A DNA stretch of 42,465 nt from positions 1 through 42,465 of the forward strand of contig JACRDS010000160.1 of the NCBI GenBank assembly GCA_016212825.1. The letters run 5' to 3'. This DNA is from Elusimicrobiota bacterium. Lineage in GTDB: Bacteria; Elusimicrobiota; Elusimicrobia; UBA1565; UBA9628. This document shows positions 23,936 through 40,385 of the stretch, piece after piece; the stretch's first letter is position 1, and every line of letters starts with the position of its first letter. The position numbers and the translations under genes were made by a program. The notes under the pieces were generated by a model, which was not told the DNA's origin, made no database searches, and saw nothing but the letters and a program-made list of their open reading frames with translations.

Positions 23936-25165
23936 TCAGCTCTCCAGGTCGCGGATCTTGAGGCAGAGGACCACCACCAGGAAGGTGATGAGCAGGGTCG
24001 CGACACCCAGGCCGATGCGGCGCCGGCTGAACTCCCAGACCGCCTTGCGCGCCGTCTCCGCGGCCTTCTGCGCCGCGGCCAGGCCCGAGGTGACCTTCTC
24101 CTGGACCGCCGCGACGCGGAAAGAGTGCACCGCGGTCCGGGCCTGGAAGAAGGCCTGCTTGGCCTCCTGAAGCGCGTCCCAGCCCGCGGCCACGTCCATG
24201 CCCTTGGCCTCGGCGGCCTTCAAGCCGCCGTCGGCCGCCTCGTAGGCGGACTGCATCCCGTCGAGCAGGCCCTTCATCTCCTCGGCGGTCCGGCTGCCCG
24301 GGTCCCCCGGGCGGTGGCACTTGCGGCAGACGCCCTTCTCTCCGTCGAGCAGAGCGGTGTCGGGATGGGAGATGTCGTGGTGGCCGTGGCAGGTGGCGCA
24401 GACATGGAAGCGCTTCTTGCCCCAGGTGGACGCCATGGGGCTCTTGGCGAAGAGCTCCATGTTGCCGGCATGGCACTGGCCGCAGGTCAGGCTGATGTCC
24501 GCCACGCCGGGCGGGGTGGCGCCGTGGTTGCCGTGGCAGCTGTTGCAGGCCGGCGCGGCGCTGTCGCCCCGCTCCAGAAGGGCCTTGCCGTGGACGCTGC
24601 CGGAGTACTTGGCGGCCTGGTCCGTAGGCAGCCCGTAGCCCTTCATGCGCTTGGCGTCCGAGTGGCAGGCGCCGCAGGTGGCGGGCACGTTCTTGGCGTA
24701 GACCGTGGAGCGGGGGTCTTTGGGCGGCAGGATGGAGTGCGCGGTGTGGCAGGAGGCGCAGGTCGCGACCTTCTCGTCCCCGGCCTTGAGCCGCTCCCCA
24801 TGGCGGCTGGTCCAGTACTTCTCCTCCTGGTCCACGGGCACGGAGGGGTTGTAGCGCTTCATGAGCCTGGCCTGGGAATGGCACTTGCCGCAGAAGGCCG
24901 GGACCTCGGCGGGCTTGGGCGCTCCCACGAAGCCGGCCTCCGGGCTCATGGCCTCCCCCATGTCCGCCTTGGAGGGGTCGCCCCCGTGGCAGGAGTGGCA
25001 GGAGAGGCCCTTCTGGTTGTGGATGTCCTGCTGGAAAGAGCGCAGAACGGCCTTGTGCTTGGCCTCCAGAGCGGCGTGGCATACGATGCACTGGTTCTTC
25101 CCCTCGGCTCGGGCCGGATGGGGAAGCAGGCAGCCCAGCAGCAGGAGTAGGGCGGCTCGGCTCAT
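23936..25165 (-). CDS. Nonahaem cytochrome c with helical C-terminus and tail anchor
   Basis: 409 residues. Signal peptide (MSRAALLLLLGCLLPHPARA), then nine CxxCH motifs between about residues 25 and 265 (CIVCH, CHSCH, CGKCH, CASCH, CGACH, CNSCH, CGQCH, CATCH, CRKCH). HTAHS, HGNHG and HGHHD pairs provide distal ligands. About 100 residues of Ala/Glu/Lys-rich helix follow, then a membrane anchor near the end (LGVATLLITFLVVVLCL). It would face the periplasm and accept electrons from the membrane module. Last gene of a seven-gene minus-strand operon; its ATG overlaps the cytochrome b stop (ATGA). Confidence 0.88.
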   Translation of the reverse strand: MSRAALLLLLGCLLPHPARAEGKNQCIVCHAALEAKHKAVLRSFQQDIHNQKGLSCHSCHGGDPSKADMGEAMSPEAGFVGAPKPAEVPAFCGKCHSQARLMKRYNPSVPVDQEEKYWTSRHGERLKAGDEKVATCASCHTAHSILPPKDPRSTVYAKNVPATCGACHSDAKRMKGYGLPTDQAAKYSGSVHGKALLERGDSAAPACNSCHGNHGATPPGVADISLTCGQCHAGNMELFAKSPMASTWGKKRFHVCATCHGHHDISHPDTALLDGEKGVCRKCHRPGDPGSRTAEEMKGLLDGMQSAYEAADGGLKAAEAKGMDVAAGWDALQEAKQAFFQARTAVHSFRVAAVQEKVTSGLAAAQKAAETARKAVWEFSRRRIGLGVATLLITFLVVVLCLKIRDLES

Positions 25166-26211
25166 GAGAGATGCCCCCAGACGGTCAAAGCCGCCGTCGC
25201 GGCCAGCGCCCCCCAGCCCAGGACATCCAGCCAGCGTTCCTTGCCCCTGGCCCTGATCAAAGAATCCCAGAAAGGCAGGAGCAGGACCGCCCCGCCCGCG
25301 GCGCCGAACAGGAAAATCCCCCAGAGTTCGCCCGGCACGAGCAGGATCCTGGCCGGCATGACCTTGAGCAGCTGATACTGGGAGAGGAAATACCACTCCG
25401 GCTTGATGCCGGCCGGGGCTGACTTCAAAGCGTCCGCCTTGAGGCCCAGCTCCCAGGGGAAGAAGACCGCCAGGACGCAGATGACGTTGAGCGCCACCAG
25501 CCAGAGCGCGAGGTCGCGCAGCACGAAATTGGGGAAGAACGGCATGTGGGCTTTGGCGTCCTCGCCGTGGGACATGCCCTGGACCTGGACGAAGAGCAGG
25601 TGCACGCCGATGAGGCAGGTGGCCGCGGCCGGCAGGATGGCCACGTGCAGGCCGAAGAAGCGCGAGAGCGTGGCCCCGGTCACCTCCTCGCCGCCGCGCA
25701 CCAGCTTGAGCAGCCAGCCTCCCGCGACGGGAAGCTGGCCGACGATGTCGGTGCCGACCTTGGTGGCGAAGTAGGCCAGCTCGTTCCAGGGCAGCAGGTA
25801 GCCGCTGAAGCCGAAGGCCATCATCAGCCCCAGCAGGAAGCACCCTGTCACCCAGCTCAGCTCGCGGGGGCTGCGGTAGGAGCGCATGACGAATATGCTG
25901 AACATGTGCGCCAGCACGAAGAAGATGAGCAGGTTGGCCGCCCAGCTGTGCACGGAGCGCATGAGCCAGCCGAACTCCACCTGGGAGGTGATGAAGCGCA
26001 CGCTCTCGTAGGAGCTCTCCGCGCCGACCCGGTAGTACATGAGCAGCAGGATGCCGGTCGCGATCTGGACCAGGAACAGGAACAGGCAGACCCCGCCGGT
26101 GTAGTAGAAGATGGTCCAGCGGTGCACGGGCACGGTCTTATGCCTGGCCCACTCCAGGAAGCTGCTGAGCTTGTAGCGCTCGTCGAGCCAGGACAGGACC
26201 AAATCCTTCAC
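25162..26211 (-). CDS. b6-type cytochrome b with fused subunit IV part
   Basis: 349 residues, GTG start at 26211 that overlaps the Rieske stop. Eight or so helices. The haem b ligands are two pairs: SVHSW...LAHMF with 13 residues between the His, and FGLHV...IGVHL with 14 between, the spacing I associate with cytochrome b6 rather than bc1. The N-terminal helix IFYYTGG resembles the b6 segment whose Cys holds the extra haem c; here that position is Tyr, so that haem is probably absent. PEWYF, the Qo-site motif, lies in the subunit IV-like part, so b6 and IV are joined. Oxidises quinol with the Rieske protein encoded just upstream. Confidence 0.9.
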   Translation of the reverse strand: MKDLVLSWLDERYKLSSFLEWARHKTVPVHRWTIFYYTGGVCLFLFLVQIATGILLLMYYRVGAESSYESVRFITSQVEFGWLMRSVHSWAANLLIFFVLAHMFSIFVMRSYRSPRELSWVTGCFLLGLMMAFGFSGYLLPWNELAYFATKVGTDIVGQLPVAGGWLLKLVRGGEEVTGATLSRFFGLHVAILPAAATCLIGVHLLFVQVQGMSHGEDAKAHMPFFPNFVLRDLALWLVALNVICVLAVFFPWELGLKADALKSAPAGIKPEWYFLSQYQLLKVMPARILLVPGELWGIFLFGAAGGAVLLLPFWDSLIRARGKERWLDVLGWGALAATAALTVWGHLS

Positions 26212-26639
26212 GTGAGGGCTCCTCCCAGGACCAGGTTGCCGTCCACGACCTTGACCGCGAACTGCGCCAGGGGCTTGGGCGGCGGGCCGGCGATGTTGCG
26301 GCCGGCGAGGTCGTACTTGCCGCCGTGGCAGGCGCACCAGACCGCGTCCATGTCGTCGCGGTACTGCACCAGGCAGTCCAGGTGGGTGCAGGTCGCGGCC
26401 AGGGCGTGGAAGGCCCCGTCCTTGGTGCGGATCAGGAGCACGGGACGCTTGCCGAACTTGAAGATCTTTCCCGCGCCCCGGGGGAACTGCTCGGCCGGAC
26501 CCAGGCTGAGCGTGTCCGGCTCGGCCTCGGTCGTCTCAGGAGGCAGCAGATAGCGCAGCACCGGGTACACCACCGAACCCAGCCAGCCCGCGGTCCCGAC
26601 GCCCAGCATCGCGTTGAGGAACTTCCTGCGGGTGATCAT
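26208..26639 (-). CDS. Rieske 2Fe-2S protein
   Basis: 143 residues. An RRKFL twin-arginine-like start and a single hydrophobic anchor (about residues 10-32) precede the Rieske domain. Cluster ligands are in CTHLDC and CACHGGKYD, followed by a PPPKPL proline loop, the usual order. The protein takes the first electron from quinol at the Qo site of the cytochrome b and hands it to a c-type haem in the periplasm. No cytochrome c1 or f gene is adjacent; the multihaem cytochromes of this operon would take its place. Both ends overlap neighbours by four bases (ATGA/GTGA), so translation is coupled. Confidence 0.92.
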   Translation of the reverse strand: MITRRKFLNAMLGVGTAGWLGSVVYPVLRYLLPPETTEAEPDTLSLGPAEQFPRGAGKIFKFGKRPVLLIRTKDGAFHALAATCTHLDCLVQYRDDMDAVWCACHGGKYDLAGRNIAGPPPKPLAQFAVKVVDGNLVLGGALT

Positions 26640-27850
26640 GCCGGCTCCTTTCTGCGGTGCGCGCTCTCGCCCCACGGCGGCAGGAGATAGAGCAGCAGGG
26701 CCAAGACCACGAGCGGCATGAAGCCCAGGACCAGGGCGCTCACCAGCCCCTCCCGGCCGGCCAGCTCCATCTTGTAGGTGGTGAAGCCGCGCAGGCTCTT
26801 GGAGAAGAACTGCCCGCCCACCACCACGTTCCAGCGCATGGCCAGAATGCCGATGAGGGAGAGGATCGCCGAGGCGCTGTAGAAGACCTTGCGCACCTTC
26901 TCGGGCAGCTCGAAGAGCTGGCAGAGGCCCAGCAGGAACATGGGGATCAGGGAGCCCATGAACATCTGCACGAAGATCATGCTGAAGTAGAGCTTGCCTT
27001 CGACGAGCAGGGAGATGATGTCGAAGTGCTCCTCCGCCTCGTAGGCGGTCTGCAGGGTCTCCAGCATCTCCAAAGTGAAGGCCACGATGAGCGCGGTCAG
27101 GAAGAACTTGGCCACGGTGTCGATGCAGGGCATCTCGATGTGCTCGTCGCGGGCCCAGCAGAGGAACATGTAGACCAGCAGGACCCCCGCGATGCCGGAG
27201 GCCATGGCCGAGAACAGGAAGATGACCGGCATCAGGGGGGTCGACCACCAGGGGTTGGCCTTGATGGAGCCGAAGATGAAGCCCACGTAGCCATGGAGCA
27301 GCACGGCGGAAGGCAGGCCGATGACCGTGAGGGCCCGGCCGACCTTGTCATCGATGGCCAAAGAACGCGGGGAGACATTGTCCACGCCGAAGGTGAGCAG
27401 CTTGTAGAAGAGCCGCTTGGGCCAGAAGGGCTCGCTCTTGGACCAGGCCACGATCTCGCGCCGGTAGTCGAGCCAGATCTCCACCAGGAGCACCGCCATC
27501 AGGTACCAGACGTACACGAAGCCGAACATGGCCATGGCCGACGAGGTGTTCGGGGTCATGAAGATCTCGAAGGCGCGCTGGGGCTGGCCCAGGTGCACCT
27601 GGAGCGGCAGGGGAGCGATGAGCAGGAAGGCCAGGGCCATGAGCAGGGAGAGCCGGTAGGTGGGCTTGACCGCGGTCACGTTGAAGACCCGCTCCAAAGA
27701 GGCCAGGATGAAGGCGCCGGCCACCAGCCCGGTGATGTAAGGATAGAGCACGATGAGCACGCTCCACTGCAGCTCCAGCTCGTTGGGATAGATGTAGCCC
27801 GAGACCATGGACATGGCCTCGCGCAGGGTCTCCATGTAGGAAGCGTGCAT
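26636..27850 (-). CDS. NrfD/PsrC-type membrane quinol-interacting subunit
   Basis: 404 residues with nine or ten membrane helices and no haem motif. The start region MHASYMETLREAMSMVSGYIYPNE leads to ELQWSVLIVLYPYITGLVAGAF, which fits the NrfD/PsrC pattern in helix 1. LPLQVHLGQPQRAFEIF and TPNTSSAMAMFGFVYVWYL contain the charged and Ser/Thr positions near the quinol site. In the family this subunit passes electrons between quinol and a periplasmic ferredoxin. Overlaps the ferredoxin gene by one base (TGATG) and the Rieske gene by four. Part of a ferredoxin/NrfD pair without a molybdenum subunit. Confidence 0.88.
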   Translation of the reverse strand: MHASYMETLREAMSMVSGYIYPNELELQWSVLIVLYPYITGLVAGAFILASLERVFNVTAVKPTYRLSLLMALAFLLIAPLPLQVHLGQPQRAFEIFMTPNTSSAMAMFGFVYVWYLMAVLLVEIWLDYRREIVAWSKSEPFWPKRLFYKLLTFGVDNVSPRSLAIDDKVGRALTVIGLPSAVLLHGYVGFIFGSIKANPWWSTPLMPVIFLFSAMASGIAGVLLVYMFLCWARDEHIEMPCIDTVAKFFLTALIVAFTLEMLETLQTAYEAEEHFDIISLLVEGKLYFSMIFVQMFMGSLIPMFLLGLCQLFELPEKVRKVFYSASAILSLIGILAMRWNVVVGGQFFSKSLRGFTTYKMELAGREGLVSALVLGFMPLVVLALLLYLLPPWGESAHRRKEPA

Positions 27851-28611
27851 CAGCGCACCTCCTTATGCAGGCCCTTGTAGACCAGCTTGGGCTCGGTGCC
27901 CATGTGGGGCTTGAGGGTCTGGATGCGCTCGGTCTCCCGGAACTTGGTGAGCGCGCTCTCCGGGTCGCTGAGGTCCCCGAACATGCGGGCCCCGGTCGGG
28001 CAGTTCTCCACGCAGGCGGGCTGCAGGCCCTTGGTGATGCGGTGGTAGCACAGGGTGCACTTGTCCGCGACCTGCAGCTCGGGGTGGAAGTAGCGGCAGC
28101 CGTAGGGGCAGGCCTGGATGCAGTAGCGGCAGCCGATGCAGTACTTCCGGTCCACCAGGACGACCCCGTCCACGGTCTTGAAGCTGGCGCCCACCGGGCA
28201 GACCTGCTCGCAGGGAGAGTTCTCGCAGTGGCCGCAGAGCTTGGGCACGAAGAAGCTCTGGGCGATGCTCTCCGGCTCGCGCGGGGCCGGATAGCCGTCC
28301 AGTCCGCCGTTGGGCGAGTCCACGGAGACTTCGCCGGTGCGCCGGAGCACGTAGCGCTCCACCCAGGTCCGGAAGTAGAAGGGCTCGCGGGGCACGTCGT
28401 TCTCGGTCTTGCAGGCGTCGACGCAGCGGCCGCAGCCGATGCACTTGGCGACGTCCACGGCATAGCCCCAGTAAGGCTTCTTCCTCCGCCAGGGAGGCTC
28501 CTTGAAGAACTTCTCCGCCGCGGCCAGGGGCGCCGCCACGGCGCGGCCGGCGAAAGCCGCGACGGCCAGGGCGGCGGTCCGGAGGAAATGCCGGCGGTTC
28601 ATGTGTCGCAT
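27850..28611 (-). CDS. Tat-exported four-cluster ferredoxin subunit (PsrB/HybA-like)
   Basis: 253 residues. A twin-arginine signal (NRRHFLRTAALAVAAFAG) directs folded export. Sixteen cysteines form four 4Fe-4S sets: CIGCGRCVDAC, CGHCENSPCEQVC, CIGCRYCIQAC and CTLC...CVENC, the arrangement of DmsB/PsrB/HybA electron-transfer subunits. It should dock on the periplasmic face of the NrfD protein encoded next and carry electrons to or from cytochromes. The ATG at 28611 lies one base after the tetrahaem stop; an ATG at 28602 is an alternative start. No molybdopterin catalytic subunit is nearby, so the partner is probably the multihaem protein. Confidence 0.9.
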   Translation of the reverse strand: MRHMNRRHFLRTAALAVAAFAGRAVAAPLAAAEKFFKEPPWRRKKPYWGYAVDVAKCIGCGRCVDACKTENDVPREPFYFRTWVERYVLRRTGEVSVDSPNGGLDGYPAPREPESIAQSFFVPKLCGHCENSPCEQVCPVGASFKTVDGVVLVDRKYCIGCRYCIQACPYGCRYFHPELQVADKCTLCYHRITKGLQPACVENCPTGARMFGDLSDPESALTKFRETERIQTLKPHMGTEPKLVYKGLHKEVR

Positions 28612-28612
28612 G

Positions 28613-29065
28613 CTATTTGGGTTGGTGCGGGGGATGGCACTGGCTGCAGGCGACGCCGGGATTATGCTCGCGCGGGTCCACCTGCGGGAACTTGGCCGGC
28701 CGGGACAGGTTCTTCTCATGGCAACGGGCGCAGAAGGCGCGCATCTCGCCCTCCTTGGGCTTGGCAGGCTTCAAGGAGGACGGGGCCTCGGCATGGGCCT
28801 GCAGAGCGCCGTGGCAGCTCTCGCAGCGGATGCCCTTGTGCCGGGAGGAGGCCTTGGCCTTGGCCTGCGCCCGGTGGCAGGGCGCGCAGGCCTGCTCCCC
28901 GGCGTAGCGCAGGGGCAGGGCCTTGATCTCGTCGACCGCGTCGGCCCGGTAATGACCGATCCGGCCGAAGCTCTTGGGGACCACCAGATGGCGCGCGATC
29001 AGGAAGCCGATGATGACCACGACGAAGGCCGCGGCCACATGGAGGAGATGTCGGATGTCTTTCAT
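28613..29065 (-). CDS. Membrane-anchored tetrahaem cytochrome c
   Basis: 150 residues. An N-terminal uncleaved anchor (LLHVAAAFVVVIIGFLIA) is followed by four CxxCH motifs (CAPCH, CESCH, CARCH, CSQCH). The spacing resembles class III-like or Cbc-type tetrahaem subunits found beside ferredoxin/NrfD pairs in Geobacter-type menaquinol:cytochrome oxidoreductases (from memory). It would accept electrons from the ferredoxin at the periplasmic face. It sits directly before the ferredoxin gene and 21 bases after the 15-haem gene in the same operon. Confidence 0.87.
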   Translation of the reverse strand: MKDIRHLLHVAAAFVVVIIGFLIARHLVVPKSFGRIGHYRADAVDEIKALPLRYAGEQACAPCHRAQAKAKASSRHKGIRCESCHGALQAHAEAPSSLKPAKPKEGEMRAFCARCHEKNLSRPAKFPQVDPREHNPGVACSQCHPPHQPK

Positions 29066-29086: not shown

Positions 29087-30769
29087 TCAATTCTTATGGC
29101 AGTTCCGGCACGTCGACTTGACGTCCCGGCGCAGGGGGACCTTCTTGTGCCCGCCGATCTCGTGGCACGACACGCAGCCCATGAGCTCGGTGTGGGCCTT
29201 GTGGGGCATGACCTTGCCGAAGGCCTTGACGCTCTCCGGCGGGACCTTGACCCCCACCCGCTGGTGGCAGAGCACGGCGCAGAAGCGGCCCGAGAGCAGC
29301 GGAGTCTCGGAGATGTCGGGCAGCTTGGCCTGGAGCGCCTCCCCCGCCTCGGTGAGGAGAGCGTCGGCCCGGCGCAGCGTCGCGGCCGCGAGGTAGATGT
29401 TGTGCTCGCCGTGCCCCAGCGCCACGAACCGCTCGAGCCTCTCCGCCCGCGCGACGGCCTGGCGCGCCCTCTCAGCCGGAGCGCCCTGGGCCTGGGCCAG
29501 CGCCTCGCGCGCCGCCTTGATGCGTCCGCGCAGTCCCTGAAGACCGGAGGCGAGCTCGTCCTTGGTCTCCTGCCAGACCCCCTTGTAGGCCGGGCCGTGG
29601 CACTTCACGCAGGCCTGGTCCGAGGCCCGGTAGTCGAAGCCGGCGAACTCGGCATCGGCGCCGCCGCCGCGCTTCTCGTAGTGGCAGCCGCCGCAGTCCA
29701 CCTGGGCCAGGAACATGGGGCTGGGCATGCGCGGCAGGCCCAGCGCCGCGGCCGCGCCCGAGTACATGGCACGCGGGCCGGCGTGCTTGTTCTCGTGGCA
29801 GAAAGAGCACTCGAAGGACATGCCCGGAGCCTGCCCCAGCTGCGCGCCGCCGCCGGGCGCCGGCGCAGCCGGGAGGCCGGCGGCCCCGTGTCCCAGGGCC
29901 GGCACGACGGCGGCGCGGTCCCCGGCGAAGCCGTGGCGGATCTCGTCGTGGCAGTGCAGGCAGGCTACGTTGTGCTTGGTGACGTGGTTGTCGTGTATGA
30001 AGGGGATGTCGTTGAACCGGGCGATCTTCTCCGGCTGGTTGTGGCAGGTCAGGCAGCGTTCCTGGCGCGCCTCCCCTTTGCCGGAGACCACCTGCGAGTG
30101 GCAGTCGAGGCAGCCCAGCCCCTGCTTGGTGACGAAGTCGCGGTGGTTGTAGGTCATGTCCCCGATCTTGACCGTCTGGCTCGGCACCTCGTGGCAGCCC
30201 CGGCAGCCGGCCAGGGTCTTGAGGTTGCGCCCTTCGCCGCGGCCTTTGAAGTGGCAGAGGTAGCAGCTCGAGTAGGTGACCTCGATATGGCTGCCCACCA
30301 TGACCTGGGAGTGGCAGGAGACGCAGCGCAGCCGCCGGCCCCGGCGCACCTCGGTCAGGTGCGGCCGATGGTCGAAGCCGATGCCGGTCTTGGCCCGGAC
30401 CCGGCCCTCGAGCAGCCGCGTGGAGTGGCAGCCCGAGCGCAGGCAGGAGGCGTCCTCGACCTCGGCGAAAGGCCGGGAAGAATACGTGCGGGTGACATAC
30501 TTGGCCACCTGCGACATGGCCTGGAATTTCTTCCACAGCAGGGTCTTCTTGCTGCCGGGCGGATAGTGGCATTCGACGCACTTGACGTGGCCGTGCTTGG
30601 AATCCTTCCACGCCTGGTAGTAGGGAGCCATGATGTGGCACGAATTGCAGAAGCCGGGGCTCTCGGAATACTTCATCGACCCGAAGAGCGCGGCCAGGGC
30701 CGCGACGGCGGCGACGGCAAGCAGGGTCGAAACGCTGACGGTCCAGCCGCCGAATCTCAAGGTCTTCAT
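29087..30769 (-). CDS. 15-haem NapC/NrfH-like anchored cytochrome c
   Basis: 560 residues. The ATG at 30769 (MKTLRFGGWT) is chosen because it places one anchor helix right after the start. The first 60 residues look like NapC/NrfH quinol dehydrogenases: an anchor, then SPGFCNSCHIMAPYY and HVKCVECHYPPG. There are 13 CxxCH motifs plus two variants, CLRSGCH (CX4CH) and CAVLCH (CX3CH), giving 15 sites. A helical insertion at about 400-480, with no haems, contains GHGEHNIYLAAATL. It probably carries electrons from quinol or a partner across the periplasm. First gene of the operon; its control region lies between it and the divergent regulator gene. Confidence 0.88.
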   Translation of the reverse strand: MKTLRFGGWTVSVSTLLAVAAVAALAALFGSMKYSESPGFCNSCHIMAPYYQAWKDSKHGHVKCVECHYPPGSKKTLLWKKFQAMSQVAKYVTRTYSSRPFAEVEDASCLRSGCHSTRLLEGRVRAKTGIGFDHRPHLTEVRRGRRLRCVSCHSQVMVGSHIEVTYSSCYLCHFKGRGEGRNLKTLAGCRGCHEVPSQTVKIGDMTYNHRDFVTKQGLGCLDCHSQVVSGKGEARQERCLTCHNQPEKIARFNDIPFIHDNHVTKHNVACLHCHDEIRHGFAGDRAAVVPALGHGAAGLPAAPAPGGGAQLGQAPGMSFECSFCHENKHAGPRAMYSGAAAALGLPRMPSPMFLAQVDCGGCHYEKRGGGADAEFAGFDYRASDQACVKCHGPAYKGVWQETKDELASGLQGLRGRIKAAREALAQAQGAPAERARQAVARAERLERFVALGHGEHNIYLAAATLRRADALLTEAGEALQAKLPDISETPLLSGRFCAVLCHQRVGVKVPPESVKAFGKVMPHKAHTELMGCVSCHEIGGHKKVPLRRDVKSTCRNCHKN

Positions 30770-30836
30770 GGAAGGCGAGAGATGATACCAAAACGCGGCC
30801 TGGGTCTGGCCTTGACGCGCATCATGGATCATGGAT

Positions 30837-30874
30837 GATGACCGTCATCGATAAAAGCATGACGGCCATCATGC
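30837..30874. promoter_or_regulatory. Fnr/Crp-like dyads in the divergent control region
   Basis: Two dyads stand side by side. GATGAC-C-GTCATC is at 30837-30849, and GCATGA-CGGCCA-TCATGC at 30857-30874 has 6-bp arms and contains TGA-N6-TCA, the spacing of Crp/Fnr half-sites. They lie between the leftward cytochrome operon (starts at 30769) and the rightward regulator genes (start at 31037). TATATT at 30917-30922 could be the -10 of the rightward promoter, which would put the second dyad near -64. Binding by the two encoded Fnr-like proteins is inferred. Confidence 0.5.
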
Positions 30875-30931
30875 CCTGGTATGCCGCATATCATAGCGCC
30901 TCAGGGCGGGGCATGCTATATTCTTTCCTGT

Positions 30932-31036: not shown

Positions 31037-31780
31037 ATGGGATACAAGAGGACGCTAGCGCCGGCGCTGGAATGCCCTTTCCAGCCGGCTGACCATTGCC
31101 GGTCCTGCGACTGCCGCAAGCGTTGCTTCTTCAACTTCCTCTCCCCTGATTCCCTCAAGCGGTTCCGCGCCCAGCGGCAGATGCGCCGCTACAAGGCCCA
31201 TCAGGTCATCTTCCAGGAAGGAGAGCAGCCCCAGGGCATCTTCATCCTGTGCGTGGGCGACGTCAAGGTCAGCAAGGCCGACGAACGCGGCCGCGAGCTG
31301 ACCCTGATGTATCTCTCCTGCGGAGACCTGGTGGGCGAGGTCCCGTTCCTGGGCGGCGAGCCTTACTGCGCCACGGCCGAGACCCTGCGCGACTCCGTGG
31401 TCTGCTTCATGCCCCGGGAGCTCGTCGAGCACGTCATGACCCAGGAGCCGGAGTTCTCCCGCCGGCTCCTGCGCAAGGTCAGCCGCATCGCCTGCCGGAC
31501 CATGGACCGCGCCTTCGGCTTCGCGTTCCGCTCCTCCGAGTCCCGCCTGGCCAGCTTCATCCTCTCCATCAAGCCTCCCGCCGGGTCGCCGACGGCGCTG
31601 CCCTGCCACGGCAAGGCCGATTACAGCCGCCGGGAGATCGCGGAGAACCTGGGGCTCTCCCCGGAGACCGTGATCAGGACCCTGTCCTCGTTCCAGAGCA
31701 GAGGCATCATACGCCTCAACGGCAAGGCCATCGAGGTCCGCAACCGGACCGCCCTCGAGAGCGTCGCCCTGGAGCACTGA
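31037..31780 (+). CDS. Crp/Fnr family regulator with N-terminal cysteine cluster (copy 1)
   Basis: 247 residues. An N-terminal cysteine set at 13, 21, 24, 26 and 30 (ECPF...CRSCDCRKRCFF) precedes a cyclic-nucleotide-binding-like beta roll (IFQEGEQPQGIFILCVGDVKVSK) and a winged helix-turn-helix (SRREIAENLGLSPETVIRTLSSF). Further Cys occur at LSCGD and PYCATAE. In Fnr, four Cys hold an oxygen-labile 4Fe-4S cluster, so oxygen or NO sensing is likely here, though the spacing differs. The recognition helix keeps E-T-V-I-R; Glu and Arg in Fnr/Crp contact the TGA part of the half-site. About 60% identical by eye to copy 2, 87 bp downstream. Confidence 0.9.
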   Translation: MGYKRTLAPALECPFQPADHCRSCDCRKRCFFNFLSPDSLKRFRAQRQMRRYKAHQVIFQEGEQPQGIFILCVGDVKVSKADERGRELTLMYLSCGDLVGEVPFLGGEPYCATAETLRDSVVCFMPRELVEHVMTQEPEFSRRLLRKVSRIACRTMDRAFGFAFRSSESRLASFILSIKPPAGSPTALPCHGKADYSRREIAENLGLSPETVIRTLSSFQSRGIIRLNGKAIEVRNRTALESVALEH

Positions 31781-31790
31781 CAACTGCCCG

Positions 31791-31824
31791 GCATGACGAA
31801 GATCATGGCCGCCGGATGCTTTTT
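31791..31824 (+). promoter_or_regulatory. CATGA-N6-TCATG dyad between the two regulator genes
   Basis: CATGACGAAGATCATG (31792-31807) has the same arms and spacing as the dyad at 30858-30873 upstream of copy 1, so it may be an operator for copy 2, whose likely -10 is TATAAC at 31842-31847. The same bases can also fold as an RNA stem enlarged by CGG/CCG, with TTTTT at 31820-31824 eight bases on, so it could instead be a terminator for copy 1. Sequence alone does not decide. Confidence 0.45.
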
Positions 31825-31867
31825 GTCATTGTCCATGCCAGTATAACGGCGCTAAAGTTTCCATAGC

Positions 31868-32611
31868 ATGGGGTACAAGAGGGCGGCCGCGCCAATCCTG
31901 ACCTGCCCTTTCGAGCCGGCGCAGAACTGCGGCAGCTGCGACTGCCGCAGGCGCTGCTTCTTCGATTTCCTGTCGCCCGAATCCCTCCGGGAATTCCGGG
32001 CGCGGCGCCAGATGCGGCACTGCAAGGCGCACCAGCCCCTGTTCCAGGAAGGCGAGCAACCTCAGGGGATCTTCATCCTGTGCCTGGGCAGCGTCAAGAT
32101 GACCAAGTCTGACCGGCGCGGCCGCGAGCTGACCATGGCCCGTCTCGCGGACGGGGACCTCGTAGGGGAGGTGTCTTTCCTGGGCCATGAGCCCTACTGC
32201 GCCTCCGCCGAGACCCTGAGCGACAGCGTGGTCTGCTTCCTCCCGCGCGACCTCATGGACGACCTCGCGGCACGGGAGCCCGAGCTCGAACGCCGGCTCC
32301 TGGGGCGGGTCAGCCGCTTCCTGTGCCGCTCCATGAACCAGGCCTTCTCCTTCGCCTTCCGCTCATCGCAGTCCCGCCTGGCAGATTTCCTCCTCGCCAT
32401 CAGGCCGCCCCCGGCCGGGGTCACGGCCCTCCCCGAAGGAGGTCGGCACGTCTACAACCGTCGCGAGATCGCCCGCAACCTCGGGTTGTCCCCGGAGACG
32501 GTGATCCGCACGCTCTCCTCCTTCCAGAAGCGGGGCCTGATCCGGATCCAAGGCCGGGCGGTCGAAGTCTGCGACCGGCCCGCTCTCGAAGCCCTGGCCC
32601 ACGAGCAATAG
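31868..32611 (+). CDS. Crp/Fnr family regulator with N-terminal cysteine cluster (copy 2)
   Basis: 247 residues, the same length as copy 1 and colinear with it. The Cys cluster (13, 21, 24, 26, 30) is conserved exactly, as are the beta-roll core (LFQEGEQPQGIFILCLGSVKM), GDLVGEVSFLG and the helix-turn-helix NRREIARNLGLSPETVIRTLSSF. Divergence is concentrated in the loops and the dimerisation helix. An additional Cys (RHCKAH) is found only here. The two copies keep identical recognition helices, so they should bind the same sites and perhaps form heterodimers or sense different signals. Placed directly before the multihaem/b561 genes it may control. Confidence 0.9.
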   Translation: MGYKRAAAPILTCPFEPAQNCGSCDCRRRCFFDFLSPESLREFRARRQMRHCKAHQPLFQEGEQPQGIFILCLGSVKMTKSDRRGRELTMARLADGDLVGEVSFLGHEPYCASAETLSDSVVCFLPRDLMDDLAAREPELERRLLGRVSRFLCRSMNQAFSFAFRSSQSRLADFLLAIRPPPAGVTALPEGGRHVYNRREIARNLGLSPETVIRTLSSFQKRGLIRIQGRAVEVCDRPALEALAHEQ

Positions 32612-32748: not shown

Positions 32749-35499
32749 ATGATGACGCGATATCGGATCCTGCACCCGAGGAACATCCTGGTCCTGGCAG
32801 CCCTGCTGCTGTGCCTCCCGGCCGCGGTCCCGGCCGAAGATGATTCCTGCCTGGGCTGCCACGCCGACCGCGCCAGCGGCGCGCCCGAGATGCCGGTCTC
32901 CAAGTTCCAGACCTCGGTGCACAAGTCCCTCGGCTGCGCGGCCTGCCACCAGGATAAGGACGGCTACCCGCACGAGCCCAAGGGCCGGCCGGTCTCCTGC
33001 GGCGGCTGCCACGCCGAGGCTCAGAAGCTCTTCGAAGACAGCCTCCACGGCAAGGCCCTGGCCCGGGGCGACGCCCTGGCTCCGCGCTGCCAGAACTGCC
33101 ACGGCAGCCACGACATCATCCCGGTACAGGGCGCGGGCTCCGCGGTCTCCCCCGTGAGGGTCCCCTTCGTCTGCGGCTCCTGCCACAGCGAAGGGTCGCG
33201 GGTCCAGAAGCAGAGGAACATCCACCAGAAGAACATCCTGGAGAACTACTCCGAGAGCTTCCACGCCGAGGGCCTGCTCAAGAAGGGCCTGAGCGTGGCC
33301 GCCACCTGCACCTCCTGCCACGGCAGCCACCGCATACTCCCGCACACCGACCCCCGCTCCACCATCGCCCGCGGCAACATCGCCCAGACCTGCCAGCGCT
33401 GCCACACCCTCATCGAGGAGCAGCACCGCAAGATCATCGCCGGCAGGCTCTGGGAGCAGTCCCCCCACATGATCCCGGTCTGCGTGGACTGCCACCAGCC
33501 GCACAAGGCGCGCAAGGTCTTCTACGACCAGGGCATGGCCGACGCGGACTGCCTGCGCTGCCACGGCCGGGCCGGCCTCAGGGCCAAGGACGGCCGCGCC
33601 ATGGGCGTGGACGCGGCCCAGGCGCGGGGCTCCGTCCACGCCAAGGTCGCCTGCGCCCAGTGCCACGCCGGCGCCACGCCCTCCCGCCACCGCCCCTGCG
33701 AGACGGTGCGGCCGGTGGACTGCGCGGTCTGCCACAGCGGACAGGTCGAGCAGTACCGCTCCAGCGTGCACGGCAGCCTCTTCCAGAAGGGCGACCGCAA
33801 CGCCCCCACCTGCGCGGAATGCCACGGCAAGCACGGCATACTCGGCCGCAAGGACAGCCGCTCCGCCACCTACCCGACCAAGGTGCCCACGCTCTGCGCG
33901 CGCTGCCACCGCGAGGGCGAGAGGGCGGCGGTGCGCTACCAGGGCCCCGAGCATGAGATCACCAGCCGCTATGTGGAGAGCGTGCACGGCAAGGGCCTGC
34001 TCAAGAGCGGCCTGACGGTCACGGCCACCTGCACCTCCTGCCACACCGCGCACGGGGAGCTCCCGGCCTCGGACCCGCGCTCCACGGTGCACAAGGACAA
34101 CATCCCGGCGACGTGCTCGCAGTGCCACTTCGGCGTCTACGAGCAGTACGCGGCGAGCGTGCACTCCCCGGCCCTGGCCAAGCCCGGGCAGAAGGTCCCC
34201 GGCTGCAACGACTGCCACACCGCGCACACCATACGCCGCACGGACCAGGAAGGGTTCCGGCTGCAGGTCATGTCCCGCTGCGGCGGCTGCCACGAGAAGG
34301 TGACCCAGACCTATTTCGAGACGTACCACGGCAAGGTCTCCCAGCTCGGCTACGCCAAGACCGCCAAGTGCCACGACTGCCACGGCGCCCACGGCATCTT
34401 CCGCGTCGACGACCCGCGCTCGCACCTGAGCCGACAGAACATCGTGGAGACCTGCCGCAAGTGCCACCCGGGCGCCACGCGCCGTTTCGCGGGCTACCTG
34501 ACCCACGCCACGCACCACGACCCGGTCAAGTACCCCTTCATCTTCGGCACCTTCTGGATCATGACCAGCCTGCTGGTGGGCACCTTCGGCTTCTTCTGGC
34601 TCCACACCTTGCTCTGGCTGCCCCGGGCGCTGCAGCTGCGCCGCGAGCATCCCCCCCAGCCCTACGATCCGGCGCGGCCCCAATACGTCCGCTTCCCCCT
34701 GCTCTACCGCTGGCTGCACGGCCTGCTGATATTCTCCTTCATATCCCTGGCCGTCACCGGCATGACGCTGAAGTTCTCCTACACGCCCTGGGCCCAGGCC
34801 CTCTCGCGGCTGCTGGGGGGCTTCGAGAGCGCGGGCTTCATCCACCGCGCCGCCGCGGTGCTCATGTTCGCGCTCTTCTGCACGCACCTGTGGGACCTGC
34901 TCACGCGCAAGCGCCGGGAAGCGGGCTCCTGGAAGGAGCTGCTGCTGGGGCCCAACACCATGATCCCCACGCTCAAGGACCTCTCCGAGTTCCGGGAGAC
35001 CATCAAGTGGTACCTGGGGCGGGGCCCTCATCCGCGCTACGGCCGCTGGACCTACTGGGAGAAGTTCGACTACTTCGCGGTGTTCTGGGGCGTGACCATC
35101 ATCGGCTCCTCCGGGCTCATGCTCTGGCTGCCCGAGACCTTCACGCGGATACTGCCCGGCTGGCTCATCAACGTCGCCACCATCATCCACAGCGACGAGG
35201 CCCTGCTGGCCACGGGCTTCATCTTCACGGTGCATTTCTTCAACACCCACCTGCGCCCGGACAAGTTCCCCATGGACCTGGTCGTCTTCACCGGCCAGAT
35301 GCCCATGGAGGACATGCCCCGCGAGCGGCCGCAGGAGTACGAGGCGCTCAAGGCCGCCGGCCGGCTCCCCGAAAGGACCTCCGCGCCCCTGCCTCTCTAC
35401 CTGGTCAAGACCCTGCGCCTGCTGGCCTGGTGCGCGCTCAGCGCCGGATTCTGCATCATCATCGGGATCATCTATGCCATGCTCTTCACGTATCGGTAA
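32749..35499 (+). CDS. 19-haem cytochrome c fused to a b561-like membrane domain
   Basis: 916 residues. Signal peptide (LVLAALLLCLPAAVPA), then 19 CxxCH motifs over about 580 residues. Several repeats share the pattern 'SxHGKxL ... CxxCHGSH ... LPHTDPRST ... ATCxxCH', which points to duplication of a cytochrome module. From about residue 600 come four or five membrane helices (TSLLVGTFGFFWLHTLLWL, YRWLHGLLIFSFISLAVTG, FALFCTHLWDLL) with His placed to bind b haems, as in FdnI/HydC/b561-like domains. Such fusions resemble CbcL of Geobacter, a menaquinol oxidase with nine haems c (from memory), but this one has twice as many. The ATG at 32749 is followed by a second at 32752. Confidence 0.9.
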   Translation: MMTRYRILHPRNILVLAALLLCLPAAVPAEDDSCLGCHADRASGAPEMPVSKFQTSVHKSLGCAACHQDKDGYPHEPKGRPVSCGGCHAEAQKLFEDSLHGKALARGDALAPRCQNCHGSHDIIPVQGAGSAVSPVRVPFVCGSCHSEGSRVQKQRNIHQKNILENYSESFHAEGLLKKGLSVAATCTSCHGSHRILPHTDPRSTIARGNIAQTCQRCHTLIEEQHRKIIAGRLWEQSPHMIPVCVDCHQPHKARKVFYDQGMADADCLRCHGRAGLRAKDGRAMGVDAAQARGSVHAKVACAQCHAGATPSRHRPCETVRPVDCAVCHSGQVEQYRSSVHGSLFQKGDRNAPTCAECHGKHGILGRKDSRSATYPTKVPTLCARCHREGERAAVRYQGPEHEITSRYVESVHGKGLLKSGLTVTATCTSCHTAHGELPASDPRSTVHKDNIPATCSQCHFGVYEQYAASVHSPALAKPGQKVPGCNDCHTAHTIRRTDQEGFRLQVMSRCGGCHEKVTQTYFETYHGKVSQLGYAKTAKCHDCHGAHGIFRVDDPRSHLSRQNIVETCRKCHPGATRRFAGYLTHATHHDPVKYPFIFGTFWIMTSLLVGTFGFFWLHTLLWLPRALQLRREHPPQPYDPARPQYVRFPLLYRWLHGLLIFSFISLAVTGMTLKFSYTPWAQALSRLLGGFESAGFIHRAAAVLMFALFCTHLWDLLTRKRREAGSWKELLLGPNTMIPTLKDLSEFRETIKWYLGRGPHPRYGRWTYWEKFDYFAVFWGVTIIGSSGLMLWLPETFTRILPGWLINVATIIHSDEALLATGFIFTVHFFNTHLRPDKFPMDLVVFTGQMPMEDMPRERPQEYEALKAAGRLPERTSAPLPLYLVKTLRLLAWCALSAGFCIIIGIIYAMLFTYR

Positions 35500-37351
35500 C
35501 CTGCCGTCCGCGGTCCTGCTGCTGTGCCTGGCCGCCCCGGCCTGGGGTCAGGAGGAGGCCTGCTTAGGCTGCCACGACAACAAGGGCATGGCGGCCCAGG
35601 CCCCCCAAGTCGCGGCTTCCCGCTTCGCTTCGTCGGCGCACAAGGACCTGGGCTGCGCCGGCTGCCACCAGGGCAAGGATGAAGTGCCCCATCCCAAGAA
35701 GGCGCCGGCTGTCTCCTGCGCCGGCTGCCACGAGGATAGCTCCAAGGCGGTGCGCGCCTCGGACCACGGGCGCATGCTCCTCCAGACCCGCAAGGGCGCC
35801 GCCCTCTGCCTGGCCTGCCATGGTTCCCCCCACGAGCTGCGCAAGACCGCGGACCCGGCGTCGGCGGTCAGCCGGGCCCGCATCCCCGAGACCTGCGATT
35901 CCTGCCACAAGAAGATGGACTTCAAGGGCAAGTTCGGGGTGGAGCCTTTCACGAGCTACGCGCAGACCGTGCACGGCAAGGCCCACCTCGCCGGACACAA
36001 CGGGAAGGCGGCGGTGTGCACGGACTGCCACGGCAGCCACAGTCTCGACTTCTCCAGCGACTCCCGCAGCCGCGCCAACCGGAACAACATCCCGAAGACC
36101 TGCGGCCGCTGCCACCCCGGCCCCCTGGCCCTCTACACCCGCTCCATCCACGGCCGCAAGGCCGCGGCCCGCGTCAAGGACGCCCCGGTCTGCACGGACT
36201 GCCACGGGGAGCACAACATCAAGGACCTGCGCGAGCCCGGCTCCATGGTCTATACCGGTTCCATCGTCAAGACTTGCAGCGCCTGCCACGGCTCGGAGAA
36301 GCTCATCGCCAAGTTCGGCATGCCCCTGGACCCGGCCAAGGCCTACCGGGACGGCTATCACGGCGTGGCCTTCACCGCGGGCAACCTGGCCGCGGCCAAC
36401 TGCGCCTCCTGCCACCACCACCACGACATCCTCCCTTCCGAAGACCCGAAGTCCTCGGTCCATCCCGGCAACCTCCAGAAGACCTGCGGGGCCTGCCACC
36501 CCCGCGCCGGGGACCTGGTCGGGATGGGCAAGGTCCACACCGCCATCACCGAAGCCGCGCGCGACCTGCCCGAGACGATCATGCGCCTGGTGCGCCAGGG
36601 CTATATCCTGCTCATCGTGCTCACCATCGGGGGCATGCTCGCGCACAACTTCCTGGACCACAAGCGCAAGCTGCTCCTGGGCCCCTCCCATCACGCCCAC
36701 GACCTGCAGTCCCTGCGCCTGAGCGTCAACGAGCGGGTCCAGCACCTGTTCCTGCTGGTCTCCTTCATCGGCCTGGCCTACACGGGCTTCTGCCACACCT
36801 ACCCGGAGTCCGTCTTCTCCCGCTACGTCTTCACGGGGGCTACGGGAGCGCACTGGCGCTCGGGCCTGCACCGCGTCTTCGCCCTGGTCCTCATGCTCCT
36901 GGCTTGCTACCATATGGCATGGCTGGCCGGCGCCAAGGAAGGACGCGGCGAATTCAAGGACATGTTCCCGCGCTGGCAGGATGTGCCGGATGTGCTGCAG
37001 CTGCAGCGGTACAATCTGACCCATCGCGGGGAGCCCCCGAAGTTCGGCCGCTTCAACTACATGGAGAAGGCCGAATACTGGGCCTTGGTCTGGGGCACCG
37101 GGGTGATGGTGGTCACGGGCTGCGTGGCTTGGTTCCGGGACATCTCCCTGCACGTGCTGCCCAAATGGTGCATCGACCTGTGCCTGCTCATCCACTTCAT
37201 GGAGGCCGTCCTGGCCTGCCTGGCCATCCTGGTCTGGCACTCCTACTGGACGGTCTTCGACGTCGATGTCTACCCCATGAACTGGGCCTGGATCACCGGG
37301 AAGTTCAAGCTCCCCTCGGCTCAGGTCCGCGATGACGAACAGCCCTCATAA
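35474..37351 (+). CDS. 11-haem cytochrome c fused to a b561-like membrane domain
   Basis: 625 residues, starting inside the end of the previous gene (26-bp overlap). Signal peptide (LPSAVLLLCLAAPAWG), then 11 CxxCH motifs (CLGCH to CGACH) over about 340 residues, with HGSHS, HGEHN and HHHHD providing further His. A membrane part from about residue 375 has helices with His in LAHNFLDHK, GLHRVFAL, ACYHMAWL and LLIHFMEAVL, suited to bind b haems. It is a shorter relative of the upstream 19-haem fusion, probably from gene duplication. It would link the quinone pool to periplasmic cytochromes. The stop overlaps the ResB gene start by 20 bases. Confidence 0.9.
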   Translation: MPCSSRIGNLPSAVLLLCLAAPAWGQEEACLGCHDNKGMAAQAPQVAASRFASSAHKDLGCAGCHQGKDEVPHPKKAPAVSCAGCHEDSSKAVRASDHGRMLLQTRKGAALCLACHGSPHELRKTADPASAVSRARIPETCDSCHKKMDFKGKFGVEPFTSYAQTVHGKAHLAGHNGKAAVCTDCHGSHSLDFSSDSRSRANRNNIPKTCGRCHPGPLALYTRSIHGRKAAARVKDAPVCTDCHGEHNIKDLREPGSMVYTGSIVKTCSACHGSEKLIAKFGMPLDPAKAYRDGYHGVAFTAGNLAAANCASCHHHHDILPSEDPKSSVHPGNLQKTCGACHPRAGDLVGMGKVHTAITEAARDLPETIMRLVRQGYILLIVLTIGGMLAHNFLDHKRKLLLGPSHHAHDLQSLRLSVNERVQHLFLLVSFIGLAYTGFCHTYPESVFSRYVFTGATGAHWRSGLHRVFALVLMLLACYHMAWLAGAKEGRGEFKDMFPRWQDVPDVLQLQRYNLTHRGEPPKFGRFNYMEKAEYWALVWGTGVMVVTGCVAWFRDISLHVLPKWCIDLCLLIHFMEAVLACLAILVWHSYWTVFDVDVYPMNWAWITGKFKLPSAQVRDDEQPS

Positions 37352-38393
37352 TAAGGAAAGCCTCTCACCGCAGCGCGGCGCCAAGCTGCTCGCCTCGCCG
37401 CGCCTGCTCTATTGGCTGCTGCCGGCCATCACGCTGCTGAGCGTGGCCGGGACCCTCATGCCGCAGGGCGAGCCGGCCGCCTGGTACGCGGAGCGCTTCG
37501 GGGCCTGGGCCGGGCTGGTGGCCCTCTGCCGGCTCGATGACATCTATCACTCCGGGCTGTTCACCTTCCTGCTGGGCCTGCTGGGCCTCAACCTGGCCCT
37601 GTGCACCTGGCAGCGCCAGATCCACAAGGGCGCGCGGCGGGACGTGCTCCTCACCCACATCTCCATCCTGACCATCCTGGCCGGCGGCATGGTCACCGGC
37701 ATCTGGGGCCAGCGCGGCAGCCTGCCCCTCGTCGTGGGAGAGACCAAGGACCATGTCGAGGGCAAGCCCGGCTTCAGCCTGCCCTTCGCGGTGAAGCTCG
37801 AGGACTTCCGCATCGAGTACCACGGCTCGGGCAGCCACCGCGTCACGCTCGCCTCGGCCCAGGAAGGGTGGAGCGAGACGGCCGAGATCCAGCCCGGCGG
37901 CTCCGTCCGGCTGCGCGGCGGCTCGGTGCAGGTCAGGGCCCTGGACTACTACCCGGACTTCGTCCTGGACGTCTCCGGCCCGGCCACCAAATCCCAGGCC
38001 CCGAACAACCCCGCCCTGCGCCTGGAGATCTCGGACTCCCAGGGCGCGGAGAAGCATTGGGCCTTCGCCAAGTTCCCGGACTTCCACGCCGACCCCAAGC
38101 ACCGCTACCAGGTGGCCTACGAGCCGGCCGAAGGCCGCATCAAGCAGTTCCGCAGCGAGGTCTCGCTCATCGAGAACGGCTTCATCGCGGCGCGCAGCGC
38201 CCTGCACGTGAACAAGCCCCTGCGCTGGAAGGGCTACACCCTCTACCAGGCCGGCTACGACCCGGAGAACCCGAGCTTCTCGAGCCTGCTGGTCAGCCGC
38301 GACCCGGGGGTGCCCGTGGTCTACGCGGGATTCTTGCTGCTCACGGCCGGCCTGGCCTGGACCTTCGTGCGCGGCATGAGGAGGCCTGCCTAG
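37332..38393 (+). CDS. resB: ResB-like cytochrome c biogenesis protein
   Basis: 353 residues. Two N-terminal membrane helices, then a third (DVLLTHISILTILAGGMVTG), a large periplasmic beta-rich part (about residues 135-310) and a C-terminal helix (VVYAGFLLLTAGLAWTFV). This is the ResB/Ccs1 layout. The protein works with CcsA/ResC in System II to attach haem to apocytochromes outside the inner membrane. Typical elements include SVAGTLMPQGE near the start and NKPLRWKGYTLYQAGYDP before the last helix. The ATG lies within the end of the 11-haem gene, and the next gene starts one base after its stop. Confidence 0.9.
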   Translation: MTNSPHNKESLSPQRGAKLLASPRLLYWLLPAITLLSVAGTLMPQGEPAAWYAERFGAWAGLVALCRLDDIYHSGLFTFLLGLLGLNLALCTWQRQIHKGARRDVLLTHISILTILAGGMVTGIWGQRGSLPLVVGETKDHVEGKPGFSLPFAVKLEDFRIEYHGSGSHRVTLASAQEGWSETAEIQPGGSVRLRGGSVQVRALDYYPDFVLDVSGPATKSQAPNNPALRLEISDSQGAEKHWAFAKFPDFHADPKHRYQVAYEPAEGRIKQFRSEVSLIENGFIAARSALHVNKPLRWKGYTLYQAGYDPENPSFSSLLVSRDPGVPVVYAGFLLLTAGLAWTFVRGMRRPA

Positions 38394-39188
38394 ATGGACG
38401 CCACGACCCTCAACCTGTGCTTCGCCGCCTACCTGGCGGCCCTGGCCTGCTACGCGGCGGCCCACGTCTCCGACCGCCCCCGGGCCCGCCAGGCCGGCCA
38501 CATCCTGCTGGCCGCGGCTTGGCTGCTGCAGACGGTCTTCCTGGCCCAGCGCTGGCGCGTCTCCGGGCACGCTCCCATGTCCAACCAGTTCGAATCCCTG
38601 GTGAGCATGGCCTGGGGCATCACGGCCTTGGCGGGCTGCCTCTGGCGCCTGGCGCCCGGCCGCTGGCTGGGCCCCGCCACCGCCGGGCTCAACCTGGTCC
38701 TGCTCGCGCTGTGCGCCCTGCTCGACAAGAGCGTGGCGCCCCTGGTGCCGGCCCTGCAGTCGAACTGGCTGCTCCTGCACGTGAGCGTCATCATGCTGGC
38801 CTATTCGGCCCTGGCCCTCTCCTTCCTGGCCTCCGCGGCGTATCTCCTGTCCCACCACCGGCGCCCGGCGGAGCAGACCGCGGCCCTGGACCTCTTCAAC
38901 GAGCGCGCCATGGGGCTGGGCTACCTGCTGCTGACCGCGGGCATCATCCTGGGCGCGGTCTGGGCCAACGAGGCCTGGGGCACCTACTGGTCCTGGGACC
39001 CGAAGGAGACCTGGTCGCTGATCACCTGGCTGGTCTACACGGGCGCCATCCACCTGCGCCGCACGCACCGCTGGCACGGCCGCGCCATGGCCTGGTTCTC
39101 GGCGGCGGGATTCGCGGTGGTGCTCTTCACCTACTTCGGGGTCAACTACCTGATGAGCAGCCTGCACTCCTACGCGGGCTCCCGCTGA
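38394..39188 (+). CDS. ccsA: CcsA/ResC-like cytochrome c haem lyase subunit
   Basis: 264 residues with about eight membrane helices. The haem-handling WWD-type motif reads WGTYWSWDPKETWSLITWLVY, quoted here as WGTYWSWD and ETWSLITW, and is intact. Flanking His residues are in LLHVSVIML and THRWHGRAMAW. It exports haem and joins it to CxxCH cysteines with ResB. The ATG follows the ResB stop directly (TAGATG), so the pair is coupled. Its location inside a cluster with 68 haem sites makes a dedicated maturation pair likely, though it could also serve the whole cell. Confidence 0.93.
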   Translation: MDATTLNLCFAAYLAALACYAAAHVSDRPRARQAGHILLAAAWLLQTVFLAQRWRVSGHAPMSNQFESLVSMAWGITALAGCLWRLAPGRWLGPATAGLNLVLLALCALLDKSVAPLVPALQSNWLLLHVSVIMLAYSALALSFLASAAYLLSHHRRPAEQTAALDLFNERAMGLGYLLLTAGIILGAVWANEAWGTYWSWDPKETWSLITWLVYTGAIHLRRTHRWHGRAMAWFSAAGFAVVLFTYFGVNYLMSSLHSYAGSR

Positions 39189-39333: not shown

Positions 39334-39395
39334 TCATTCATGAATGACAAGAATCATACTTGACCCATGACAATCATGTTATTGATTTTCATCAC
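39334..39395 (+). promoter_or_regulatory. Clustered Fnr-like dyads upstream of the MtrA/MtrB genes
   Basis: Within the 258-bp region between ccsA and the decahaem gene, four dyads occur in about 60 bp: TCATTCATGAATGA (39334-39347, perfect palindrome), ATGACAAGAATCAT (39344-39357, TGA-N6-TCA), CATGACAATCATG near 39366-39378, and TTGATTTTCATCAC (39382-39395). The last differs from the Fnr consensus TTGAT-N4-ATCAA at one base. The surrounding sequence is AT-rich for this genome. These are likely control sites for the regulators encoded upstream. The transcription start cannot be fixed by eye. Confidence 0.6.
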
Positions 39396-39446
39396 TTTCA
39401 GATAGAGTATGTGAGCTTTATGTCAGATCATACGGAGGATTCAACG

Positions 39447-40346: not shown

Positions 40347-40385
40347 GGGCTCCTTTCCCTGGGTATGACGACTCTAGGAGAACAT

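Follow-up and report, generated by a model that had tools for sequence, protein, structure and literature searches.

The window, by which we mean the whole 42,465-nucleotide stretch of Elusimicrobiota DNA analysed here, encodes two tandem regulators of the Crp/Fnr superfamily, FNR1 (31037..31780, + strand) and its paralogue FNR2 (31868..32611, + strand). Both open reading frames are uninterrupted and specify 247 aa each, and the two products are 67% identical. The pair is flanked by genes for multihaem cytochromes. Leftward, on the − strand, are a cytochrome b/b6-type protein (25162..26337), an NrfD/polysulphide-reductase-type membrane subunit (26636..27850), a 4Fe-4S ferredoxin-type subunit (Fer4_11, 27850..28719), a tetrahaem c3/c7-type cytochrome (4 CXXCH, 28613..29065) and a NapC/NirT-type multihaem cytochrome (13 CXXCH, 29087..30832, with a probable true start at 30769). 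Rightward, on the + strand, are two fusions of a CbcL-like multihaem domain to a cytochrome b561-type domain, CbcL1 (19 CXXCH, 32752..35499) and CbcL2 (11 CXXCH, 35474..37351), followed by a ResB-type cytochrome c maturation protein (37332..38393), a CcsA-type cytochrome c assembly protein (38394..39188), an MtrA-like decahaem cytochrome (39447..40346; the frame opens at 39360, and the start at 39447, after a GGAGG, is probably the true one) and an outer-membrane porin of the MtrB/PioB type that continues past the end of the window (40365..42464). The porin matches PF11854 (E = 9.6e-100) and the adjoining cytochrome gene carries 10 CXXCH motifs, as in a locus of the Mtr/Pio type. An earlier note on this DNA had placed the regulators between two cytochrome operons, and we find them linked to both. 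The order FNR(s)-CbcL-(ResB)-CcsA-MtrA repeats in related genomes as far as their contigs extend (G000 denotes the source genome, other G numbers its relatives and L numbers loci). Between CcsA and the MtrA-like gene, the cluster of G006 also encodes another member of the Crp/Fnr superfamily, whose cysteines follow a distinct pattern (L043, 12366-13133).

Both regulators combine a cNMP-binding-type beta-roll (PF00027, E = 1.9e-22 and 5.1e-21) with an HTH_Crp domain (PF13545, E = 5.4e-14 and 3e-15), and each of these matches exceeds its cut-off. FNR of Aliivibrio fischeri is among the best solved-structure matches for both and is the top match for FNR2. Together with the aligned ligands described below, these domains and matches bear out the description of the two proteins as Fnr-like. 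An AlphaFold model computed with a five-sequence alignment reached a pLDDT of 42. Several further Crp/Fnr-type genes with DNA-binding domains are present in the source genome.

The N-terminal cysteine segments, from C13 to C30 (codons 31073..31126, + strand, in FNR1; 31904..31957, + strand, in FNR2), read C-x7-C-x2-C-x-C-x3-C, and both proteins do have the cysteines noted earlier at positions 13, 21, 24, 26 and 30. Their spacing had been considered unlike that of Fnr, which does not hold: the exact Fnr spacing is contained in it, plus two additional cysteines. The C-x2-C-x5-C arrangement was masked because the extra C26, at the position of I25 of E. coli FNR, falls between the second and third ligands. 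A MAFFT alignment pairs C21, C24, C30 and C123 with the [4Fe-4S] ligands C20, C23, C29 and C122 of E. coli FNR, and a HMMER alignment pairs the same four residues with the ligands of A. fischeri FNR. FNR1 and FNR2 both contain the ligand set of a strict FNR (C20-x2-C23-x5-C29 plus C122), including the equivalent of the fourth ligand, C123 (codons 31403..31405 and 32234..32236, + strand), which had been overlooked. As judged from these residues, both proteins very probably bind an Fe-S cluster.

The cysteine signature is no coincidence but a property of the whole clade, as a search of the relatives revealed: C13, C21, C24, C26 and C30 are invariant in all 10 members, as are C72 and C153, even though one member is only about 40% identical, and C111 and C123 are kept in 9 of the 10. 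In the protein of L050, a 40%-identical paralogue from G016, none of the five N-terminal cysteines is missing and C72 is kept, but Thr replaces C123. A class-wide Elusimicrobiota family of Fnr-like proteins (L003, 1483-2184, G000:C5, and 23 homologues in L019-L042) has the C-x2-C-x5-C spacing as well, with the equivalents of C20, C23 and C29 in 24/24 members, C72 in 24/24 and Ser at C122 in 23/24. Because L050 lacks C123, and because this sister family mostly has Ser at C122 and keeps C72, an altered ligation is conceivable, in which C26, C13 or the invariant C72 would join or tune the cluster, possibly replacing C122. It would constitute a new ligation scheme among FNR-type sensors, and we give it little credence. 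The invariance of C13 and C26 (and of C72 and C153), and the retention of the five N-terminal cysteines in the protein that lost C123, might also point to thiol/disulfide redox or metal sensing, instead of or on top of oxygen sensing by an Fe-S cluster. The complete canonical ligand set of the other nine members, the location of C26 between ligands at a position held by Ile in E. coli, and the presence in E. coli FNR of a non-ligand N-terminal cysteine of its own (C16), comparable to the extra C13, make such a function improbable.

Outside the ligands, the likeness to Fnr is partial. The recognition helices (residues 205-220, E--IR; 31649..31696 in FNR1 and 32480..32527 in FNR2, + strand) read LGLSPETVIRTLSSFQ in both proteins, which upholds the earlier observation that they are identical. 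The equivalents of E209 and R213 are kept and S212 is replaced by Ile in all clade members, a departure from the strict E209/S212/R213 set. D154, in the dimer helix of E. coli FNR, is responsible for a charge clash in the apo-monomer; the equivalent residue is T155 in FNR1 and S155 in FNR2. The NCBIfam Fnr model NF008365 scores the two proteins at 71.2 and 68.7 bits against a curated cut-off of 228. Because of the S212 to Ile and D154 to Thr/Ser replacements and a score far under the cut-off, we classify FNR1 and FNR2, by sequence, as FNR-type proteins that possess the canonical ligands, and not as strict Fnr orthologues.

Full five-cysteine regulators are found in 6 of 341 Elusimicrobiota genomes, namely five from the genus to which the window belongs, plus G016; a peptide-motif scan of genome contigs returned two relatives, both Elusimicrobia. 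A close CbcL2 orthologue (>60% identical) occurs in exactly those six genomes among 38 related ones, and two members of the genus are without both the regulator and the CbcL2 orthologue. In the tree, the FNR1 sequences form a clade of their own (support 97/95), apart from those of FNR2; the duplication is therefore older than the species, and it also precedes the genus. Between orthologues, dN/dS is about 0.2-0.35 for both FNR1 and FNR2, indicating purifying selection, and therefore both copies are maintained. In G002, ACG stands where the conserved ATG start of FNR1 is expected (L045, 8534-8536), leaving its start codon uncertain.

Two rival views of the pair can be weighed against this record. 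According to the first, proposed in the earlier note, the paralogues read different signals (oxygen versus NO, or oxygen versus the redox state of the cytochromes) and deliver them to the same sites. Identical recognition helices, purifying selection on both copies in G000, G001 and G002, and precedents with differing oxygen sensitivities in Pseudomonas putida (PMC4505428) or with an Fnr1-Fnr3 interaction in Herbaspirillum seropedicae (PMC5934665) all fit such dual sensing. Yet the two proteins scarcely differ in their ligands, in C13 and C26 or in the stretches between the cysteines, and only positions 12, 81 and 140, none of them a ligand, consistently distinguish the two clades. In some relatives, moreover, a single copy at the locus suffices, of the FNR1 type in G005 and of the FNR2 type in G006. 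The sequences thus lend dual sensing no support, and we consider it unlikely. The same single-copy loci could instead suggest that FNR2 is superfluous and in the course of being lost, all the more as no other copy within the genus has as long a branch as FNR2 of the source genome, which evolves faster and has lost C95 and C190. Decay of this kind is nevertheless rather improbable for a protein whose ligands, C13, C26 and helix residues are all intact, whose dN/dS is 0.29 (FNR2 of G000 versus G002) and whose upstream dyad is conserved in three genomes. Different oxygen thresholds or heterodimers, as in the multi-FNR proteobacteria, are possible.

Candidate DNA sites were searched for with sequence patterns. 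The TGA-N6-TCA sites reported earlier are real (17 in the window, 4.95 expected) and look functional. The extended form CATGA-N6-TCATG occurs twice, at 30858 and 31792, against an expectation of 0.01, with one copy 5′ of each regulator gene. At the regulator and cytochrome promoters the sites take the form ATGAC-N4-RTCAT, and not the TTGAT-N4-ATCAA of the Fnr target; only imperfect TTGAT sites lie near. Upstream of FNR1 we find ATGACGGCCATCAT (30859..30872, + strand), with a −10-like TATATT at 30917-30922 (spacer 44), a second dyad in the space separating FNR1 from the divergent NapC-type gene (ATGATGACCGTCAT, 30835..30848) and a third, weaker one upstream of the NapC-type gene (TTGACGCGCATCAT, 30812..30825). 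Lying 23-24 bp apart, these three (30812-30872) possibly form a cooperative array between the divergent NapC-type operon and FNR1. The dyad upstream of FNR2 is ATGACGAAGATCAT (31793..31806, + strand; TAAAGT at 31853-31858, spacer 46). The MtrA-like gene is preceded by ATGACAAGAATCAT (39344..39357, + strand; TAGAGT at 39403-39408, spacer 45) and by an additional FNR-box-like dyad, TTGATTTTCATCAC (39382..39395, + strand). Equivalent dyads lie 5′ of FNR1 and FNR2 in G001 and G002 and 5′ of FNR1 in G016, upstream of MtrA-like genes in G000 (two loci), G001, G002, G005 and G016 (two loci), and upstream of CbcL1 (G016), c7 and other multihaem genes. We found no clear dyad upstream of the FNR gene of G006. 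A second CcsA-dyad-MtrA arrangement of the source genome lies at a contig end (L091, G000:C130), and its dyad is nearly identical to that of G002.

The distance from dyad to promoter is largely fixed. A TANNNT hexamer begins 44-46 bp past the dyad in 10 of 15 dyads, a set that includes orthologous promoters and is not fully independent (9 of 13 when non-redundant). Rotated-sequence controls gave a mean maximum of 3.3-3.7 and reached the observed value in 0 of 5000 trials; by scanning for the best window, this control allows for the freedom in position but not for that in defining the hexamer, and the width of the 44-46 window was set after tabulating the same sites. Several dyads do not follow the spacing (the FNR1 sites of G001, G002 and G016; L083; L131). 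If the hexamer at 44-46 bp is taken to lie at the usual −10 position, the dyad is centred at roughly −63 to −65. For CRP/FNR-dependent promoters, a centre near −64 corresponds to about the class I activator position.

Counts across whole genomes are less informative. The ATGAC-N4-RTCAT pattern has 27/17/41/30 matches, compared with 5/2/2/1 for a reversed-pattern control and 0/2/4/0 for a control with a 5-bp spacer. A 7-bp spacer, which preserves the reading frame, gives 16/17/28/17, so that the true dyad is only 1.0-1.8 times as frequent as the in-frame coding control. The excess is therefore mostly a coding bias for Met-Thr-x-Ile/Val, and we dropped genome-wide enrichment as functional evidence, as the in-frame control recovers most of it. 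Most matches outside promoters are coding coincidences, and the functional case for the dyads rests on conserved promoter places and fixed spacing, not on counts. Dyads outside the window lie directly 5′ of a multihaem gene in 4 of 54 cases, compared with 0 of 30 control sites, a suggestive link with such genes.

The dyad followed by a −10 pattern had more matches than the same pattern with the spacer shifted by 6 bp in most, but not all, genomes. Genomes that lack the tandem regulators show a surplus as well, and this brought a second flavour of site to light. In relatives with and without the pair, TTGAY-N4-RTCAA dyads are followed at class I distance by TTGAC and TANNNT, and some of them lie directly beside an L003-type gene, whose product has an E--VR recognition helix. 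These sites look like a lineage-wide FNR-like regulon. Those with a TTGAC −35 and a TANNNT −10 (L176, L177, L185, L197, L199, L202 and others) often precede genes for small secreted proteins. Single-CXXCH proteins of about 450-480 aa are also encoded behind class I-spaced dyads (L208, about 2060 onward, in G006; L199, about 1590 onward, in G010), and that of L199 resembles the monohaem cytochrome-porin type. Since the TGA-N6-TCA core is common to much of the superfamily, and class I-spaced sites occur across the relatives, the dyads of the window could belong to another Crp/Fnr protein, such as the three-cysteine L003 type, with the tandem regulators acting elsewhere. The class-wide sites are of the T-TGA..TCA-A flavour and occur also in genomes that lack the pair, whereas the genomes with ATGA..TCAT sites at cytochrome genes also encode the five-cysteine proteins, and we consider it quite unlikely that the latter sites serve a different regulator. 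Most simply, the two flavours would reflect a division in which T-TGA half-sites belong to the L003 type and A-TGA half-sites to the tandem pair.

We favour a model in which FNR1 and FNR2 are FNR-type Fe-S proteins that at low oxygen activate their own genes and those of extracellular electron transfer, and we regard this model as probable. Each subunit would most likely carry one [4Fe-4S] cluster held by C21, C24, C30 and C123. Without oxygen, the holo-dimer, and not another Crp/Fnr protein, would occupy the ATGAC-N4-RTCAT dyads centred near −64 and act by class I activation, not repression. Its targets would be the two regulator promoters (autoregulation) and the promoters of multihaem cytochrome genes. 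The products would form a chain that carries electrons out to extracellular minerals or in from them, comprising the CbcL-like quinone:cytochrome proteins, the MtrA-like decahaem protein with the MtrB/PioB porin and probably the divergent NapC/NrfD operon. As the recognition helices are identical, the two regulators are expected to have the same DNA specificity, in agreement with the earlier note; most likely they would share their sites, being partly redundant or heterodimerising, perhaps with differing oxygen thresholds.

The closest characterized relatives are the FNR proteins of E. coli and A. fischeri (PDB 5CVR, 5E44, 8QTO). By sequence, FNR1 and FNR2 have the same superfamily fold, match all four ligand positions, keep E209 and R213 of the helix and are associated with sites of the same TGA-N6-TCA core. 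They are nevertheless distant in sequence, with the additional invariant C13 and C26 and the replacements of S212 by I and D154 by T/S; the half-site is ATGAC here and TTGAT there, and the genes form a tandem pair within an electron-transfer cluster. With two invariant cysteines more than usual here, and C122 apparently lost from sister proteins, nature has provided a test of how far cluster ligation and oxygen sensitivity may vary among FNR proteins.

In Shewanella oneidensis, Crp (cAMP) reportedly controls the genes of outer-membrane decahaem cytochromes. A member of the Crp/Fnr superfamily may thus be in charge of decahaem cytochromes in both cases, but S. oneidensis uses Crp with cAMP, whereas the protein here is of the FNR type, has Fe-S ligands and is encoded at the cytochrome locus. 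The control of mtr/omcA-type cytochromes in S. oneidensis is the subject of PMC4417206. A survey of CbcL, MtrH and MtoC (PMC6295460) lists two Elusimicrobia homologues in its Table 1 and describes CbcL-like proteins as often encoded beside mtrAB; the available part of its text makes no mention of regulators or of a tandem FNR pair. In the papers that our literature search returned, extracellular electron transfer in Elusimicrobiota has no described regulator, and the gene set of this FNR pair does not appear. The pair supplies a testable regulator, a candidate DNA site (ATGAC-N4-RTCAT near −64) and a set of genes. It implies that control of an Mtr/CbcL conduit may lie with an FNR-type oxygen sensor and not with cAMP-Crp.

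Multiple FNR proteins within one organism have precedents. P. putida has three, ANR, PP_3233 and PP_3287, which differ in oxygen sensitivity (PMC4505428), and H. seropedicae has Fnr1, Fnr2 and Fnr3, of which Fnr1 and Fnr3 interact (PMC5934665). Like the pair described here, these paralogues keep all ligands and have similar DNA specificity, and they control respiratory chains; the accessible portions of both papers contain no description of adjacent genes with a common upstream dyad in a multihaem cluster, nor of C13 and C26. By analogy, either a P. putida-like split in oxygen sensitivity or an H. seropedicae-like interaction could describe FNR1 and FNR2.
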